Origin: Arthrobacter sp. PAMC 25486
GTDB taxonomy: Bacteria; Actinomycetota; Actinomycetes; Actinomycetales; Micrococcaceae
NCBI RefSeq assembly: GCF_000785535.1
Contig: NZ_CP007595.1
Span: 4,424,439 to 4,488,438, forward strand
Length of the DNA: 64,000 nucleotides
Direction of reading: 5' to 3'
The notes beneath the pieces were generated by a model. That model worked only from the letters and a program-made list of their open reading frames with translations, was not told the DNA's origin and searched no databases. The position numbers and the translations under genes are program-made. This document shows positions 3,314 through 40,509 of the stretch, in pieces. The first letter of the stretch is position 1. Each line of letters opens with the position of its first letter.

Positions 3314-3375
3314 CAAGGGTGCGCCGCCCCGATTTCACAACTGGGCAACCCTTTGTTATTGTTGTTCCTGCACGA

Positions 3376-3451
3376 TCCCCTATAGCTCAATTGGCAGAGC
3401 GTTCGACTGTTAATCGAAAGGTTCCTGGTTCAAGTCCAGGTGGGGGAGCCA
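3376..3451 (+). tRNA. tRNA-Asn (GTT), copy 1
   Basis: 76-nt cloverleaf with encoded CCA. Acceptor TCCCCTA pairs with TGGGGGA (one T-G pair), D stem GCTC/GAGC, anticodon loop CTGTTAA with GTT (Asn), T stem CCTGG/CCAGG with loop TTCAAGT. Identical to the second copy 118 bp downstream. Confidence 0.97.
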
Positions 3452-3459
3452 AGGCGATA

Positions 3460-3505
3460 TTGTCTGACGGTTTTGTTGTGAAACCGTCAGACAATTATTG
3501 CTTTT
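3460..3505 (+). terminator. Strong terminator between the two tRNA-Asn genes
   Basis: Perfect 14-bp stem (TTGTCTGACGGTTT and its complement) with a 7-base loop, followed by a T-rich stretch. It should end the first tRNA transcript, so the second tRNA copy probably needs its own promoter in the AT-rich stretch at about 3495-3565. Confidence 0.85.
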
Positions 3506-3569
3506 CGTGCGCAGGAATGTTCGGTTTTGATTTCAACCGCAAATTACTGCTAAGATTTACTTGCCTCAT

Positions 3570-3645
3570 TCCCCTATAGCTCAATTGGCAGAGCGTTCGA
3601 CTGTTAATCGAAAGGTTCCTGGTTCAAGTCCAGGTGGGGGAGCCA
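3570..3645 (+). tRNA. tRNA-Asn (GTT), copy 2
   Basis: Identical in all 76 bases to the first copy, including the encoded CCA. The first bases after both genes are also similar (an ATTGTCT core), which suggests the tRNA was duplicated together with part of its 3' flank. Confidence 0.97.
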
Positions 3646-3665
3646 AAGAGACATTGTCTCTGACC

Positions 3666-3707
3666 AAAAGGACCCCCGCACTTCAGCTGAAGTGCGGGGG
3701 TCCTTTT
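3666..3707. terminator. Bidirectional terminator between tRNA-Asn and the MFS gene
   Basis: A 42-base perfect palindrome: a 21-bp arm starting AAAAGGACCCCCGC and its exact complement with no spacer. It has A-runs on one side and T-runs on the other, so it can end the tRNA transcript (plus) and the converging efflux-pump transcript (minus, stop at 3719). Confidence 0.9.
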
Positions 3708-3718
3708 GTTGTTTGGTG

Positions 3719-9162: not shown

Positions 9163-9372
9163 GGGGGTAGTCGTTGCCATCCGCCCCTGGCAGACCGGCC
9201 GCATTTGGCAACGACTACCCCCGCAGCTTCGGAATCCGTCCGTGCCGGCCGCATTTGGCAACGGCTACCCCCGCAGCTTCGGAATCCGTCCGTGCCGGCC
9301 GCATTTGGCAACGGCTACCCCCGCAGCTTCGGAATCCGTCCGTGCCGGCCGCATTTGGCAACGACTACCCCG
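9163..9372. repeat. 50-bp tandem repeat (3.5 units) with an inverted partial copy
   Basis: Units start at 9198, 9248, 9298 and 9348 (the last cut at 25 bases), each beginning GCCGCATTTGGCAACG. They differ only at one A/G position (GACTAC or GGCTAC). A 17-base reverse-complement copy of the ACTACCCCC segment sits at 9163-9179, so the left end can fold back on the array. All six frames are partly open here, but nothing looks coding. It lies between a tRNA terminator and the promoter region of the acyl-CoA dehydrogenase. Confidence 0.9.
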
Positions 9373-36983: not shown

Positions 36984-37525
36984 GTGAGAAACCGCCGGTC
37001 GAGCCTGCGTCTCCTCCGGTCGTGCCTGTCGAGGCCAAGGGGACCCAGGCCCGGACAGTCACCCAGCGCGGGCTGTATTTTGAGGAACTGGAAATCGGTG
37101 TGCTGTACCAACACCGCCCCGGACGCACCATGACGGAAACGGACAACGTCCTGTTTACCACCATGACCATGAACACCCAGGCCCTGCACCTGGATGCGGC
37201 ATGGAGCGAGGGGCAGCCGTTTGGTCAGCGCCTCATGAACTCGATGTTCACGCTCGCCACCATGGTGGGCCAGTCCGTGGCGCAGCTGACTCAGGGAACC
37301 ATCGTGGCCCAGCTGGGCATGAACGACATTTCCTTCCCGCACCCGCTGTTCCACGGCGATACCTTATATACGGAGACCGTCGTGACGGATAAGCGGCTCT
37401 CGGCATCACGGCCGGGACAGGGGATAGTGGTGATGGAACACACCGGACGCAACCAATCCGGCGTCGTGGTTGGACATGCCAGCCGGACCTCACTATTTTG
37501 GCTTCTGCCAACCGAACAAAACTAA
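36980..37525 (+). CDS. MaoC-like (R)-specific enoyl-CoA hydratase
   Basis: 181 aa, hot-dog fold. [20 protein letters not shown] is the family N-terminus, with hydratase residues in the NTQALHLD segment and [12 protein letters not shown] later. The Mycobacterium tuberculosis counterpart in the same cluster (Rv2499c) hydrates itaconyl-CoA and is associated with the CitE-type lyase; here methylglutaconyl-CoA hydration in leucine breakdown is the other likely role. The first 25 residues are Pro-rich and probably disordered. Confidence 0.86.
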
Positions 37526-37573
37526 TCAACCGACCACCCCTGTGCCATCAAAACTTAGGAGCACGTCATTTCC

Positions 37574-38434
37574 GTGAGCCACGCATTCACCATGGGCCCC
37601 ACCCTCCTGTTTGCCCCGGCAGACCGGCCCGAGCGCTTCGCCAAGGCGGCCGAACGCGCCGACGCCGTCATCATTGACCTGGAAGACGCGGTCGCGCCGG
37701 TTGCCAAGGCGCAGGCCCGGGAAAACATGGTGGCCAGCACACTGGACCCGACGAAAACCATGGTGCGCATCAACGCCCTCGACACGCCCGATGCCGCCCT
37801 GGACCTGGCGGCGGTGGCGCGCAGCCCCTACCGGACCATCATGGTGGCCAAGGCCTCCGACCCGGCAGGCGTCGCGGCGCTCGCGGACTTCAACGTGGTG
37901 GTGCTGTGCGAAAGTGCGGCCGGGATCCTGGCTGCCTCCGCCCTGGCGCAGCTGCCCAATGTGGTGGCGTTGATGTGGGGCGCCGAGGACCTCGTGGCCT
38001 CATTGGGTGGAACGTCCAGCCGTTTCACCGCCGGGCTGCGGGCCGGAAGCTACCGTGACGTGGCTATGCTGGCGCGCTCGCAGCTGCTGCTGGCGGCCGG
38101 TGCTTTCGGGAAGGTCGCGATCGACTCCATCTACGCCGACTTTGCCGACCTCGAGGGCCTCGCCGAAGAGTCAGAGGACGCCATGGCCAGCGGCTTCGGT
38201 GCGAAGGCATGCATCCACCCCTCGCAGGTTGCCGTCATCCGGGCTGCCTACCGGCCCTCTGACGACGATGTTGCTGCCGCCCGTGAACTGCTGGCCGCCG
38301 CCGATGCTGCGGGCACCGGCGTGTTCGCGTTCCAGGGCCAGATGGTCGACGGCCCCATCCTCCTCCACGCACAGCAAACCCTGCGCCGGGCCACCCCTGA
38401 CAGCCCAGACGCTCGCTCACATATGGGGCATTAA
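37574..38434 (+). CDS. HpcH/CitE-type CoA-ester lyase
   Basis: TIM-barrel lyase, 286 aa, cleaving a 3-hydroxyacyl-CoA such as HMG-CoA or citramalyl-CoA. Seen: LLFAPADRPERFAKAAERAD, the Mg-ligand region VIIDLEDAVAP, LCESAAGILAA with the second acidic ligand, and KACIHPSQVAVI at the end. The start is uncertain: GGAG lies about 13 bases before GTG 37574, while an in-frame ATT at 37568 has ideal spacing. The last nine codons and stop lie inside the first unit of a 32-bp repeat array, so the C-terminus (DARSHMGH) is repeat-derived. Confidence 0.87.
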   Translation: MSHAFTMGPTLLFAPADRPERFAKAAERADAVIIDLEDAVAPVAKAQARENMVASTLDPTKTMVRINALDTPDAALDLAAVARSPYRTIMVAKASDPAGVAALADFNVVVLCESAAGILAASALAQLPNVVALMWGAEDLVASLGGTSSRFTAGLRAGSYRDVAMLARSQLLLAAGAFGKVAIDSIYADFADLEGLAEESEDAMASGFGAKACIHPSQVAVIRAAYRPSDDDVAAARELLAAADAAGTGVFAFQGQMVDGPILLHAQQTLRRATPDSPDARSHMGH

Positions 38435-38595
38435 TCCCAAACGCTCGCGCAGTTACGGGGCGTTTTTCCCAAACGCTCGCGCAGCAATGGCCAGTCCCGT
38501 CAGTGTGATTCCCCTATGATGGGTCCAATTCGAAACGCTCCTGCAGTAGCGGGGCGGTTTTCGACAACGCTCGATCAGTTGTGGGGTGTCATCGT
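38404..38595. repeat. 32-bp-period repeat array, left arm
   Basis: Units of the pattern ACGCTCGCGCAGTTACGGGG plus a GCGTTTTTCCCAA tail begin at 38409, 38441, 38473, 38535 and 38567. The spacing is exactly 32, with one decayed unit between 38473 and 38535. The whole period is repeat, with no spacers. Bases 38404-38429 recur as a perfect 26-bp inverted copy at 39172-39197. Confidence 0.9.
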
Positions 38596-38662
38596 GGGGA
38601 AAGAACTTCCGGGGAACAAACAAGCGGGCTGGCCGGATCCGGGCCAGGTGACACTTGCCGAC

Positions 38663-39046
38663 ATGAATATCAAGCAGCGGGTCCGTCTTGTTCCATTCGT
38701 GCTGGCGGTCCTGGCCATGCTGTGCAGCATCGTCGGACCCAATGCGGGCTTGTACCTGGCCGGACATTCCCTTGCGCTCGTTGCCGCGCTGGCCGTACCC
38801 GTGAGCTATGGGTGGCTCAGCCGTGGTGCGGGTACGCAGAATAAATCACAGCGGGCGGCCCTCACCGCCGGCCTTTCACTGCTCGCCGTGGTGCTTGCCT
38901 TTGCGGAGGCCGTCATGCTGTCCTATGGCTCAGCCGACGGTGCGGTCGCCGACATTGGCGGGACGTTCCTCTGGCTGGTGGGCGGTGTGGGACTTCTGGC
39001 ACTTTCGGGCCTGGCCGCGTATCAGTGGCCCCGCCAGGGACATTAA
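38663..39046 (+). CDS. Hypothetical four-TM membrane protein between inverted repeat arrays
   Basis: 127 aa from ATG 38663 with four hydrophobic segments, a short Lys/Arg start (MNIKQRVRL) and no recognisable family. The frame is open upstream to 38516, but that part runs through the repeat array and is unlikely to be native. No good ribosome site is seen for any start (GTG 38594, GTG 38648 and ATG 38663 are options). It is flanked by inverted copies of a 32-bp-period repeat and followed by a 20-bp stem hairpin, so it looks like a self-contained unit. Function unknown. Confidence 0.6.
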   Translation: MNIKQRVRLVPFVLAVLAMLCSIVGPNAGLYLAGHSLALVAALAVPVSYGWLSRGAGTQNKSQRAALTAGLSLLAVVLAFAEAVMLSYGSADGAVADIGGTFLWLVGGVGLLALSGLAAYQWPRQGH

Positions 39047-39049
39047 GGA

Positions 39050-39099
39050 ACGGCGGCGGCCGGTGACCTCTTCTGTGAAAGGTCACCGGCCGCCGCCGT
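39050..39099 (+). terminator. 20-bp perfect stem after the small membrane protein
   Basis: ACGGCGGCGGCCGGTGACCT pairs perfectly with its complement at 39080-39099 around a 10-base loop that can form three more pairs. It starts 3 bases after the stop. No U-tract; a U-independent terminator is the likely role. Confidence 0.75.
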
Positions 39100-39149
39100 G
39101 CTTCAACCGGCCGCGGGTGCGACAGCGAACCAGGAAATCCAGCCATTGC

Positions 39150-39230
39150 TGCGCTAGCGTTTCGGGAAAGCGCCCCATATGTGAGCGAGCGTCTGGGAAA
39201 AGCGCCCCATATGTGATCGAGCGTTCAGGA
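39150..39230. repeat. 32-bp-period repeat array, right arm (inverted)
   Basis: Three units in the opposite orientation to the left arm; their GAGCGT ends fall at 39224, 39192 and 39160, exactly 32 apart. It contains the 26-bp perfect inverted match to the left arm. Confidence 0.9.
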
Positions 39231-39240
39231 GTGGGGTGGG

Positions 39241-39816
39241 CTAGGCGTTGACGAGGGCGCCTTCGCGGACCGTCTTCATGGCGCGAGTCCAGGTGATGAG
39301 CTGGTCGAGCATGGGCGCGACCGAGGCTGCCTGGATCTCGGTGGGCTTGAAGGTGGAGAAGTTCTCGAAGTCGGTGAACAGGGAGAACATGCCGGTCTTC
39401 TGCACGTGGGCGACCTGCAGTTCGGAGAGGATGCCGCGCAGGTGCTCCATGGCGCGGACGCCGAAGGCCGAGCCGTAGCCGACCATGCCGGCGGCCTTGT
39501 TGTTGAACTCGACATTCAGGTAGGAGATGGCGTTGGCCAGGGCCGGCTGGACCGAGTGGTTGTACTCGCCGGTGATGAAGATGTAGCCGTCAAACTCGTT
39601 CATCTTCGCTGCCCAGACCTTGGTGTGGTCGTTCTGATAGTTCTGGTAGCCGGCCGGGTAGGCCTCGTCCAGGACGGGCAGGTTGAAGTCCGCGATGTCA
39701 ACGATTTCGTAGTTTGCATCCCCGCGCAGCTGAGCCTGAGCCAGGACCCATTCTGCAACGCCGGTGTTAATGCGGCCGGGGCGGGTGGAACCGGTGACGA
39801 TGGCGATCTTGGTCAT
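39241..39816 (-). CDS. NADPH-dependent FMN reductase family protein
   Basis: 191-aa flavodoxin-like oxidoreductase. FMN-phosphate loop GSTRPGRINTGV and the flavin-ring loop TGEYNHSVQPALANAISYL are intact. ATG start with AAGGAG 7 bases upstream. It is divergent from a MarR-type regulator, with two direct repeats of a MarR-like site in the 129 bp between them. This suggests induction by a redox-active or phenolic compound. Confidence 0.92.
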   Translation of the reverse strand: MTKIAIVTGSTRPGRINTGVAEWVLAQAQLRGDANYEIVDIADFNLPVLDEAYPAGYQNYQNDHTKVWAAKMNEFDGYIFITGEYNHSVQPALANAISYLNVEFNNKAAGMVGYGSAFGVRAMEHLRGILSELQVAHVQKTGMFSLFTDFENFSTFKPTEIQAASVAPMLDQLITWTRAMKTVREGALVNA

Positions 39817-39861
39817 GTGTTTTCTCCTTGAAAATGAGCAACGCGCCACCGTAAGTAAATG

Positions 39862-39922
39862 ACGTGTCAACTAAAACTTGCTGTTTCCATCATGAAGCAG
39901 ACATACTTGATGTGTCAACTAA
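39862..39922. promoter_or_regulatory. Candidate MarR operators (two GTGTCAACTAA repeats)
   Basis: GTGTCAACTAA occurs at 39864-39874 and 39912-39922, 48 bp apart, in the divergent region. Each lies in a small palindrome (TGAC-GT-GTCA for the first, TTGA-TGTG-TCAA for the second). They sit at the FMN reductase and MarR sides respectively, as expected for joint control. Confidence 0.6.
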
Positions 39923-39945
39923 TGCTAAGGAATGTGAGGAAGGCA

Positions 39946-40509
39946 ATGACCCGCAATGATTCCGCGGCCCCGGTCGTGCCGGGGCGAACGCCAGGGCAAA
40001 CTCCGGGGCAAACGCCGCAGCGCCCGCCCGAGCAGCTCCCTCCCGAGGAGACGCACTGGCTCAGCACCCAGGAGCAGGCCCTCTGGCTGGAGTTGCGCGA
40101 ATTCGCCAGCGGCCTCCCGCGCGCCATCGACCGCCAGCTCCTCCAAGACTCCGACGTCTCCGGTGTGGAGTACTCCGTCCTGGCTGTCGTGTCGGAATCG
40201 CCAGGCAAGGTGGTTCGTTCCGGTGATCTTGCCGCCAAGCTGGGGTGGGACCGCTCTCGGGTGTCCCACCTGCTGCGCCGCATGGAAGCCCGCGGGCTCA
40301 TCCATCGCTGCGCCGCGAGTGCCGACGGTCGCGGCCAGGACATCGCCCTGACCGAGGCCGGCTGGGATAAGGTGCGTGGCGCCGCCCCCGGCCACGTCAC
40401 CATGGTGCGCGAAACCATCTTCGATCCCCTGACGCCCGAACAGCAGACACAGCTTTTTGCGGCACTCACCAGCATCCGCCGCGCCGCCGAGGAACGCGGC
40501 CTGTGGTGA
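39946..40509 (+). CDS. MarR family transcriptional regulator
   Basis: 187 aa with a winged-helix domain: VEYSVLAVVSESPGKVVRS, LAAKLGWDRSRVSHLLRRME (recognition helix), and the wing RCAASADGRGQDIALTEAG. The N-terminal 30 residues are Pro/Gln/Thr-rich with a repeated TPGQ. ATG 39946 has GAGGAAGG upstream. Divergent from the FMN reductase it probably controls. Confidence 0.9.
   Translation: MTRNDSAAPVVPGRTPGQTPGQTPQRPPEQLPPEETHWLSTQEQALWLELREFASGLPRAIDRQLLQDSDVSGVEYSVLAVVSESPGKVVRSGDLAAKLGWDRSRVSHLLRRMEARGLIHRCAASADGRGQDIALTEAGWDKVRGAAPGHVTMVRETIFDPLTPEQQTQLFAALTSIRRAAEERGLW

Follow-up and report, generated by a model that had tools for sequence, protein, structure and literature searches.

The two inverted repeat arrays around a small membrane-protein gene in our window, the 64,000-nucleotide stretch of the Arthrobacter sp. 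PAMC 25486 genome that was analysed, belong to a dispersed family of repeat arrays at the 3' ends of genes. A typical array starts just past a stop codon, has the orientation of the gene closed by that codon and is built of 12-bp boxes at a 32-bp pitch. Many arrays lead through a short loop into an inverted array, and a half-unit often stands at the end. Such arrays occur in the strain's own genus and in at least one other genus of its family. Where genomes must be told apart we use codes: G000 is the strain's own genome (4.59 Mb, one contig), G001, G002 and so on are comparison genomes, and L-numbers are loci.

A scan of the window for the 12-bp box RACGC-N5-CA finds five copies on the forward strand and three inverted copies (Table 1). 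The pitch is 32 bp save for a single step of 62 bp in the left run, from 38472 to 38534. The scan confirms the inverted 32-bp-period repeats that a preliminary description had placed around the membrane-protein gene. The repeats are where it had put them, with positions shifted by one base, and the exact 32-bp spacing that it gave holds within each run but not for the left side as a whole, which includes the 62-bp step. Its 26-bp perfect inverted segment (38404-38429 and 39172-39197) is indeed exact, and the hairpin and four-TM gene that it described lie between the arms. Matches to the unit pattern with up to 3 mismatches number five in the window, against 0.06 expected from shuffles. The arms at 38409-38491 and 39142-39224 are 83% complementary over 83 nt, and in both of them the third box continues into a matching half-unit (AACGCTCGCGCAGCAATGGC versus AACGCTAGCGCAGCAATGGC). 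The second forward pair of boxes has no counterparts of its own on the right side. The left array lies at the 3' end of citE: final citE codons lie within the first box, which the frame traverses, and the stop is inside the array (window 38408-38434). In several relatives (e.g. G002, G013, G015) the stop at the citE end lies, by eye, ahead of the array. The right array, at the 3' end of the FMN reductase gene, is oriented along that gene.

Table 1. Genes, arrays and hairpin in the citE to FMN reductase region, in window coordinates.
Feature	Position	Strand	Details
citE-like gene, HpcH/HpaI aldolase family	37574..38434	+	Pfam PF03328, 3.2e-24; match in 23/23 genus genomes
Left array	38408..38491	+	full 32-bp units at 38408 and 38440 (boxes 38408-38419, 38440-38451); terminal half-unit at 38472 (box 38472-38483) with matched GCAATGGC
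Second forward box pair, 62 bp past the left array's last box	38534..38597	+	boxes 38534-38545, 38566-38577
Small membrane-protein gene, between the arms	38663..39046	+	127 aa; ATG 38663; four hydrophobic peaks
Terminator-like hairpin 3' of the membrane-protein gene	39043..39106	+	stem 39043-39069 / 39080-39106, 27 nt, 89%
Right array	39142..39225	-	full units 39214-39225, 39182-39193; terminal half-unit 39150-39161 (1 mismatch)
NADPH-dependent FMN reductase-like gene, convergent to citE	39241..39819	-	Pfam PF03358, 2.3e-30

Elsewhere in G000 the repeat likewise lies between genes. Among the loci listed, a 22-position weight matrix gave 183 intergenic and 7 coding matches, and a strict pattern applied to an evenly spaced sample (800 kb plus the window) gave 25 intergenic and 1 coding. 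The 53 listed intergenic regions with at least two units divide into 26 convergent and 27 tandem spaces (12 ++, 15 --) with none divergent, against a background of 88 divergent gaps among 396 in the evenly spaced sample; the exceptions are two single units in divergent spaces. The arm order is + then - throughout the multi-unit regions, with one exception (- then +). Many G000 arrays start no more than about 30 nt from the stop codon, and one-arm arrays in tandem spaces follow the direction of the upstream gene (14 versus 2). In G001, G021, G031, G105 and G175 the corresponding count is 13 versus 0 and the median distances from first box to stop codon are 4-30 nt, the exceptions being four regions called divergent and one G031 region ordered - then +. 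Box matches in G021 are 15 coding versus 76 intergenic. A recognisable half-unit, with at least 6 of 7 head letters, closes 49 of 87 arrays.

The pitch is kept although the letters vary. Of 94 pairs of same-strand neighbours, 89 stand exactly 32 bp apart, 2 at 31 and 3 at 33, and the linkers of those 89 pairs carry 712 differences. When only one-strand regions are taken, all 41 of 41 are at 32 bp. For G021 the loci were collected with a pattern open to 26-33 bp, and 38 of 39 neighbours are at 32 bp; in G001, G031, G105 and G175 the pitch is uninformative because the loci were picked with a 32-bp pattern.

A second distance, D, runs from the start of a + box to the end of the - box that faces it. 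Facing pairs were selected by pattern alone, irrespective of array or gene-end context. A first look at D (n=30) suggested steps of about 10.5 bp, with off-step values of 26, 35, 65, 204 and 221. The test pattern admits every D from 25 to 55, and the step classes 38-40 and 49-51, which derive from the first look, where G000, G021 and G031 had shown steps, cover six of the 21 possible distances between 35 and 55 bp, which gives the share expected by chance. The counts cover 127 of the 131 pattern sites, all but 4 in G008, and two runs with nesting pairs were left out. Among the 75 of these 131 sites listed for the first set, D is 29-31 in 52, 38-40 in 9 and 49-51 in 4. At D of 35 or more, 13 of 14 listed genus sites fall in the two step classes, or 7 of 8 without G000 and G021. 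Seven further genus genomes (52 sites) gave 9 of 10, or 9 of 11 if G001, a near-twin of G022, is counted, and six genomes of the other genus gave 11 of 12, or 9 of 10 without G031. Merging loops at least 70% alike leaves 12/13, 8/9 and 5/6 (p 3e-6, 3e-4 and 0.009). The long loops of the genus are mostly dissimilar (14 sites in 13 clusters, 10 in 9), whereas 7 of the 12 long-loop sites in the other genus share one loop type (ACTTTC and its inverse) and are thus not independent. Reversed-pattern controls were zero in 22/23, 7/7 and 3/6 genomes. Further off-step values are 43, 46 and 36, the 46 of G001 and G022 being a run of CAG triplets; two G021 sites with D 29 are identical in sequence.

The spacing seems to move in helical steps while the sequence varies, as in a DNA-phased array. 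The period is roughly resolved: a scan is high at about 9.5-12.5 bp with its top near 11, and a linear fit gives 9.9, from only two peaks. The suggestion in the preliminary description that a unit spans three helical turns and is the substrate of a putative repeat-binding protein gained support from the pitch (89/94 and 41/41) and from the ten-bp facing steps. Bendability with a 10.7-bp period was rejected as an explanation, as it is not common to G001 and G031.

The repeat is abundant in G000. The unit, with up to 3 mismatches, has 193 + 202 matches against 51 + 65 for a reversed control, and two units in tandem have 43 + 40 against 0 + 0. The G000 loci analysed were those among the matches listed, which makes any count a lower bound; at least 50-60 loci carry arrays, relative to about 3,700 genes (extrapolated from 694 genes in 864 kb). 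Another word, RACGCCGCAGCA-ccttccgggg with its variants, is found at the same pitch at L182, L191, L192, L220, L222 and position 238816, so that two words seem to coexist in this genome. Among the matches listed, array sites look denser at about 1.55-2.28 Mb and 3.0-3.47 Mb.

Beyond G000, 10 of the 22 other genus genomes contain the tandem-unit pattern, and none of 35 from outside the genus does. We searched 149 genomes of the family, among them 8 of the genus's 23, with a word-free pattern of three box heads spaced 32 bp apart. It matches in 45 of the 149, many at control level. Clear excess appears in the strain's own genus (G000, 57 versus 5 in the control; G002, 49 versus 26; G019, 15 versus 0; G001, 14 versus 0). 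A second genus shows it too (G031, 23 versus 4; G175, 6 versus 0), but there G082 gave 3 versus 3. Rfam returned five matches in 37500-40500 at E up to 1, each under its gathering score. No description of the repeat in Arthrobacter was found in titles and abstract openings, with most subscription literature outside the search. A table of PMC12306157 has a row for Arthrobacter livingstonensis with the figures 5,512 and 705.

The site after citE allows one array position to be followed between species. A citE match is present in all 23 genus genomes, and in 11, the strain's own included, a facing reductase lies within the fetched locus. The preliminary description proposed to compare this interval between strains. 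By eye, all 11 intervals contain facing arrays, also in relatives that lack the four-TM gene, mostly with a different word. The words at this site include AACGCTCCCTCAC (G007), GACGCGGTATCAC (G014), AACGCCGCATCAC (G015) and AACGCTCTCGCAG (G013); in G002, G010 and G012 the arrays are less regular by eye. Where the gene after citE is convergent both arms are present, and where it runs in the same direction (G001, G022, G021) there is the sense arm only. By eye, no array follows citE in G003, G005, G011, G016 and G017. Left and right boxes have a mean best match of 0.84 within a genome versus 0.66 between genomes, with 0 of 20000 permutations as high, although G002 (0.40) runs counter to this likeness. 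The comparison indicates that the box word drifts between species while site and geometry persist. The citE-downstream sequence of Arthrobacter wenxiniae NZ_JAAMFM010000007.1 (L242) equals that of G018 by eye, which places A. wenxiniae in the genus. Twelve of 80 named citE loci were viewed, this one among them; the other 11 have no such array after the gene, by eye, and include Pseudarthrobacter, Kocuria, Micrococcus, Nesterenkonia, A. oryzae and A. agilis and, at about 51-62% identity, are possibly not orthologues.

The gene between the arms in the window had suggested a mobile or regulated cassette with repeat ends, the facing arrays being the ends of an element that carries the four-TM gene. 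Such a cassette would account for two observations, namely that none of the 10 syntenic relatives was found to have an intact copy of the gene here and that G004 (L103) has a different frame of 361 codons between matched arrays. The latter may encode a DUF559-type protein. However, facing arrays stand at the same site in relatives without the gene, and in 8 of the 11 genomes only 100-393 bp separate the citE and reductase protein matches. The 127-aa product of the gene falls in no Pfam or NCBIfam family above cut-off, and a peptide-pattern search of the genome contigs found no relatives; G000 carries a paralogue (G000:C1:2795587, 53%), and the gene is matched in 10 of the 22 other genus genomes. 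At 16 other loci with a homologue, 15 have no phased array within 1 kb and L051 has one on one side only, so that none has arrays on both sides, and the repeat stands at dozens of other gene ends. G013 keeps decayed pieces of the gene between its arms, together with a stretch similar to the terminator-like hairpin. Searched with a single element, 72,556 plasmid records and 50,697 phage records gave no match, on which ground a phage or plasmid origin was also rejected. A MITE or mobile cassette would have TIRs moving as a unit, empty sites and target duplications; the arrays do not behave in this way, with target duplications sought by eye. We rejected the cassette, which we now regard as highly improbable. 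The opposite possibility raised in the preliminary description, a repeat simply scattered at random intergenic places, is half right: the repeat is scattered, but in an orderly way and frequently as inverted pairs. Most simply read, the facing arrays were there first and the gene entered between them later; two or more gene insertions seem to have occurred in the citE-reductase interval.

How might the arrays work? We propose that a putative sequence-specific DNA-binding protein would sit on neighbouring boxes along a single face of the duplex, with a spacing of three turns between boxes of one array and of a whole number of turns across the dyad. That the boxes would be read on duplex DNA by such a protein is suggested because the facing distance moves in steps near ten bp. 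The bound protein would most likely mark or block the transcription unit's end, acting either as a polar roadblock or as a boundary that keeps convergent genes apart, and the box word would drift between species, presumably together with the protein, as the geometry stays. A protein-occupied polar array at gene ends is in our judgement the most likely way of working, and we give it about an even chance, with both binding and the effect on transcription inferred from sequence. Weighing against it are the off-step distances, the exceptions to the gene-end rule and the small share of genes with listed arrays. As for arrays taking the place of ordinary terminators, a strong local hairpin occurs in 11 of 25 array spaces versus 36 of 54 array-free spaces, a non-significant difference (p 0.08). 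More tentatively, and with rather less confidence, we suggest that this genus and at least one related genus may possess an undescribed gene-end system, in which a fast-evolving DNA-binding protein on phased boxes stops or insulates transcription downstream of selected genes, the words being species-specific and the geometry fixed.

The sense polarity and the closeness to the stop codon would also suit an RNA element. Here the transcribed arrays would fold, and facing arms would form a long hairpin that ends or protects both convergent mRNAs. Sense orientation, stop-codon closeness and the lack of multi-unit arrays in the divergent spaces of G000 all agree with this, some two-arm spaces fold strongly (L075 10554-10727, z -12.8), and the arms of one element share words (0.69 versus 0.49 shuffled, p 0.0015). 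Yet full units that would pair in the stem resemble one another no more than unmatched ones do: the covariation signal for a stem, initially p 0.0015 and p 0.007 with rank-matched linkers, was gone once half-units were excluded, and we rejected it. A stem would also leave unexplained why one-strand arrays still hold the 32-bp pitch (41/41) and why the facing distance shifts in steps near ten bp. By eye, the inner hairpin is followed by no T-run on the sense strand in the G000 elements viewed. Nor is there a clear C-over-G skew suggestive of Rho loading; a Rho-like composition was discarded, with C 0.32 / G 0.27 in units versus 0.32 / 0.29 in array-free ends. On balance we consider an RNA element unlikely. 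One caveat to the helical steps is that the facing boxes are perfect short hairpins in many elements, and a bias of hairpin origin could mimic such steps.

The arrays might instead have no function of their own and be a selfish or passively copied repeat, similar to REP/BIME, that was inserted or converted at gene 3' ends, with copying making the words alike within each genome. This would fit words that are species-specific at many loci, the presence of the repeat in one genus plus at least one other of the family, and the loop types common within the other genus. Two kinds of mobile gene touch on the same idea. A two-ORF element, presumably of the IS3 family, lies inside a box at two G000 loci (L197 ~2520 and L205 ~2538), with GCTC on both sides by eye; a third copy adjoins a half-box (L219 / L021), and in the evenly spaced sample 2 of 3 IS3-type copies are in or beside boxes (L074 and L087, not L067). 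Boxes are targets for this element, just as REP repeats are for some IS elements (PMC1525189). The Y1 transposase family (Y1_Tnp, PF01797), the one protein family compared with the distribution of the arrays, is found in G000 and G019, two of the three genomes richest in tandem units. However, it is absent from 21 of 23 genus genomes, including G021 with its 30 tandem matches, and no exact box was found within the locus of either Y1 gene (~3.4 kb each); a RAYT/REP origin was rejected on that distribution. Passive copying would moreover not predict loop-length steps among unlike loops, and the site after citE is kept across species despite the change of word. We consider passive copying unlikely, to about the same degree as an RNA element. 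The related loops of the other genus and the Y1 gene in the strain's own genome led us to raise its weight and to lower that of the protein-occupied array and of the undescribed gene-end system.

Among known repeat systems, REP/BIME elements come closest in position. As described by Di Nocera et al. 2013 (PMC3733652), the GTAG and CGTC superfamilies are short repeats dispersed near gene 3' ends in convergent and unidirectional spaces, occur as inverted pairs and are partly species-specific; HT dimers are absent, under-represented or negligible, and the CGTC REPs have no dedicated transposase. The main text of that paper contains "helical" and the stems "actinobact" and "micrococc" 0 times. The arrays described here are also intergenic at gene 3' ends, paired in layout and seldom divergent, but their unit is not palindromic, and head-to-tail copies at the 32-bp pitch are the rule. 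A REP unit is a palindrome of 20-40 bp with a GTAG or CGTC tag; the consensus here, AACGCTCGCTCACATACGGGGCATTTTTCCCC, has by eye no such stem beyond GGGG/CCCC in the linker, and one-arm arrays exist, although its reverse complement ends GCGTY, a CGTC-like end. The RAYT association, which concerns the GTAG class only, is likewise missing, with Y1_Tnp in 2 of 23 genomes. We class the arrays as a variant within the dispersed 3'-end repeats, separate from REPs.

Other systems share single traits. RIBs of E. coli are reportedly linked to IHF, and, as the main text of PMC3733652 has it, E. coli REPs are targeted by gyrase. In both, as putatively here, a DNA-binding protein meets a repeated element at the 3' end of a transcription unit, but the arrays are phased and carry species-specific words, with nothing pointing to IHF or gyrase. 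In eukaryotes, Reb1 and TTF-I sites are polar, repeated, protein-binding roadblock terminators after genes, which is the way of working proposed for the arrays; this is an analogy only, the protein here being putative. DNA uptake sequences of Neisseria and Pasteurellaceae are genome-wide words with dialects, often in inverted pairs after genes. The arrays resemble them in layout but have fewer copies and are phased. CRISPR loci seem to differ in layout, the one aspect compared, in that identical repeats with unique spacers lie beside cas genes, whereas here 12-bp boxes with related linkers lie at many gene ends.

If the protein-occupied array is correct, letters that change between species under a spacing locked to the helix would offer a direct handle on a gene-end protein, for which an array could serve as bait, and it would bear on the old question of the level, DNA or RNA, at which REP-like repeats act.

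Two further repeats were noticed in the window. One convergent space (3314-3718) contains, by look, two near-identical tRNA-gene-like copies, and 9195-9371 is a tandem repeat of 50-bp period with 3.5 copies and 98% matches.
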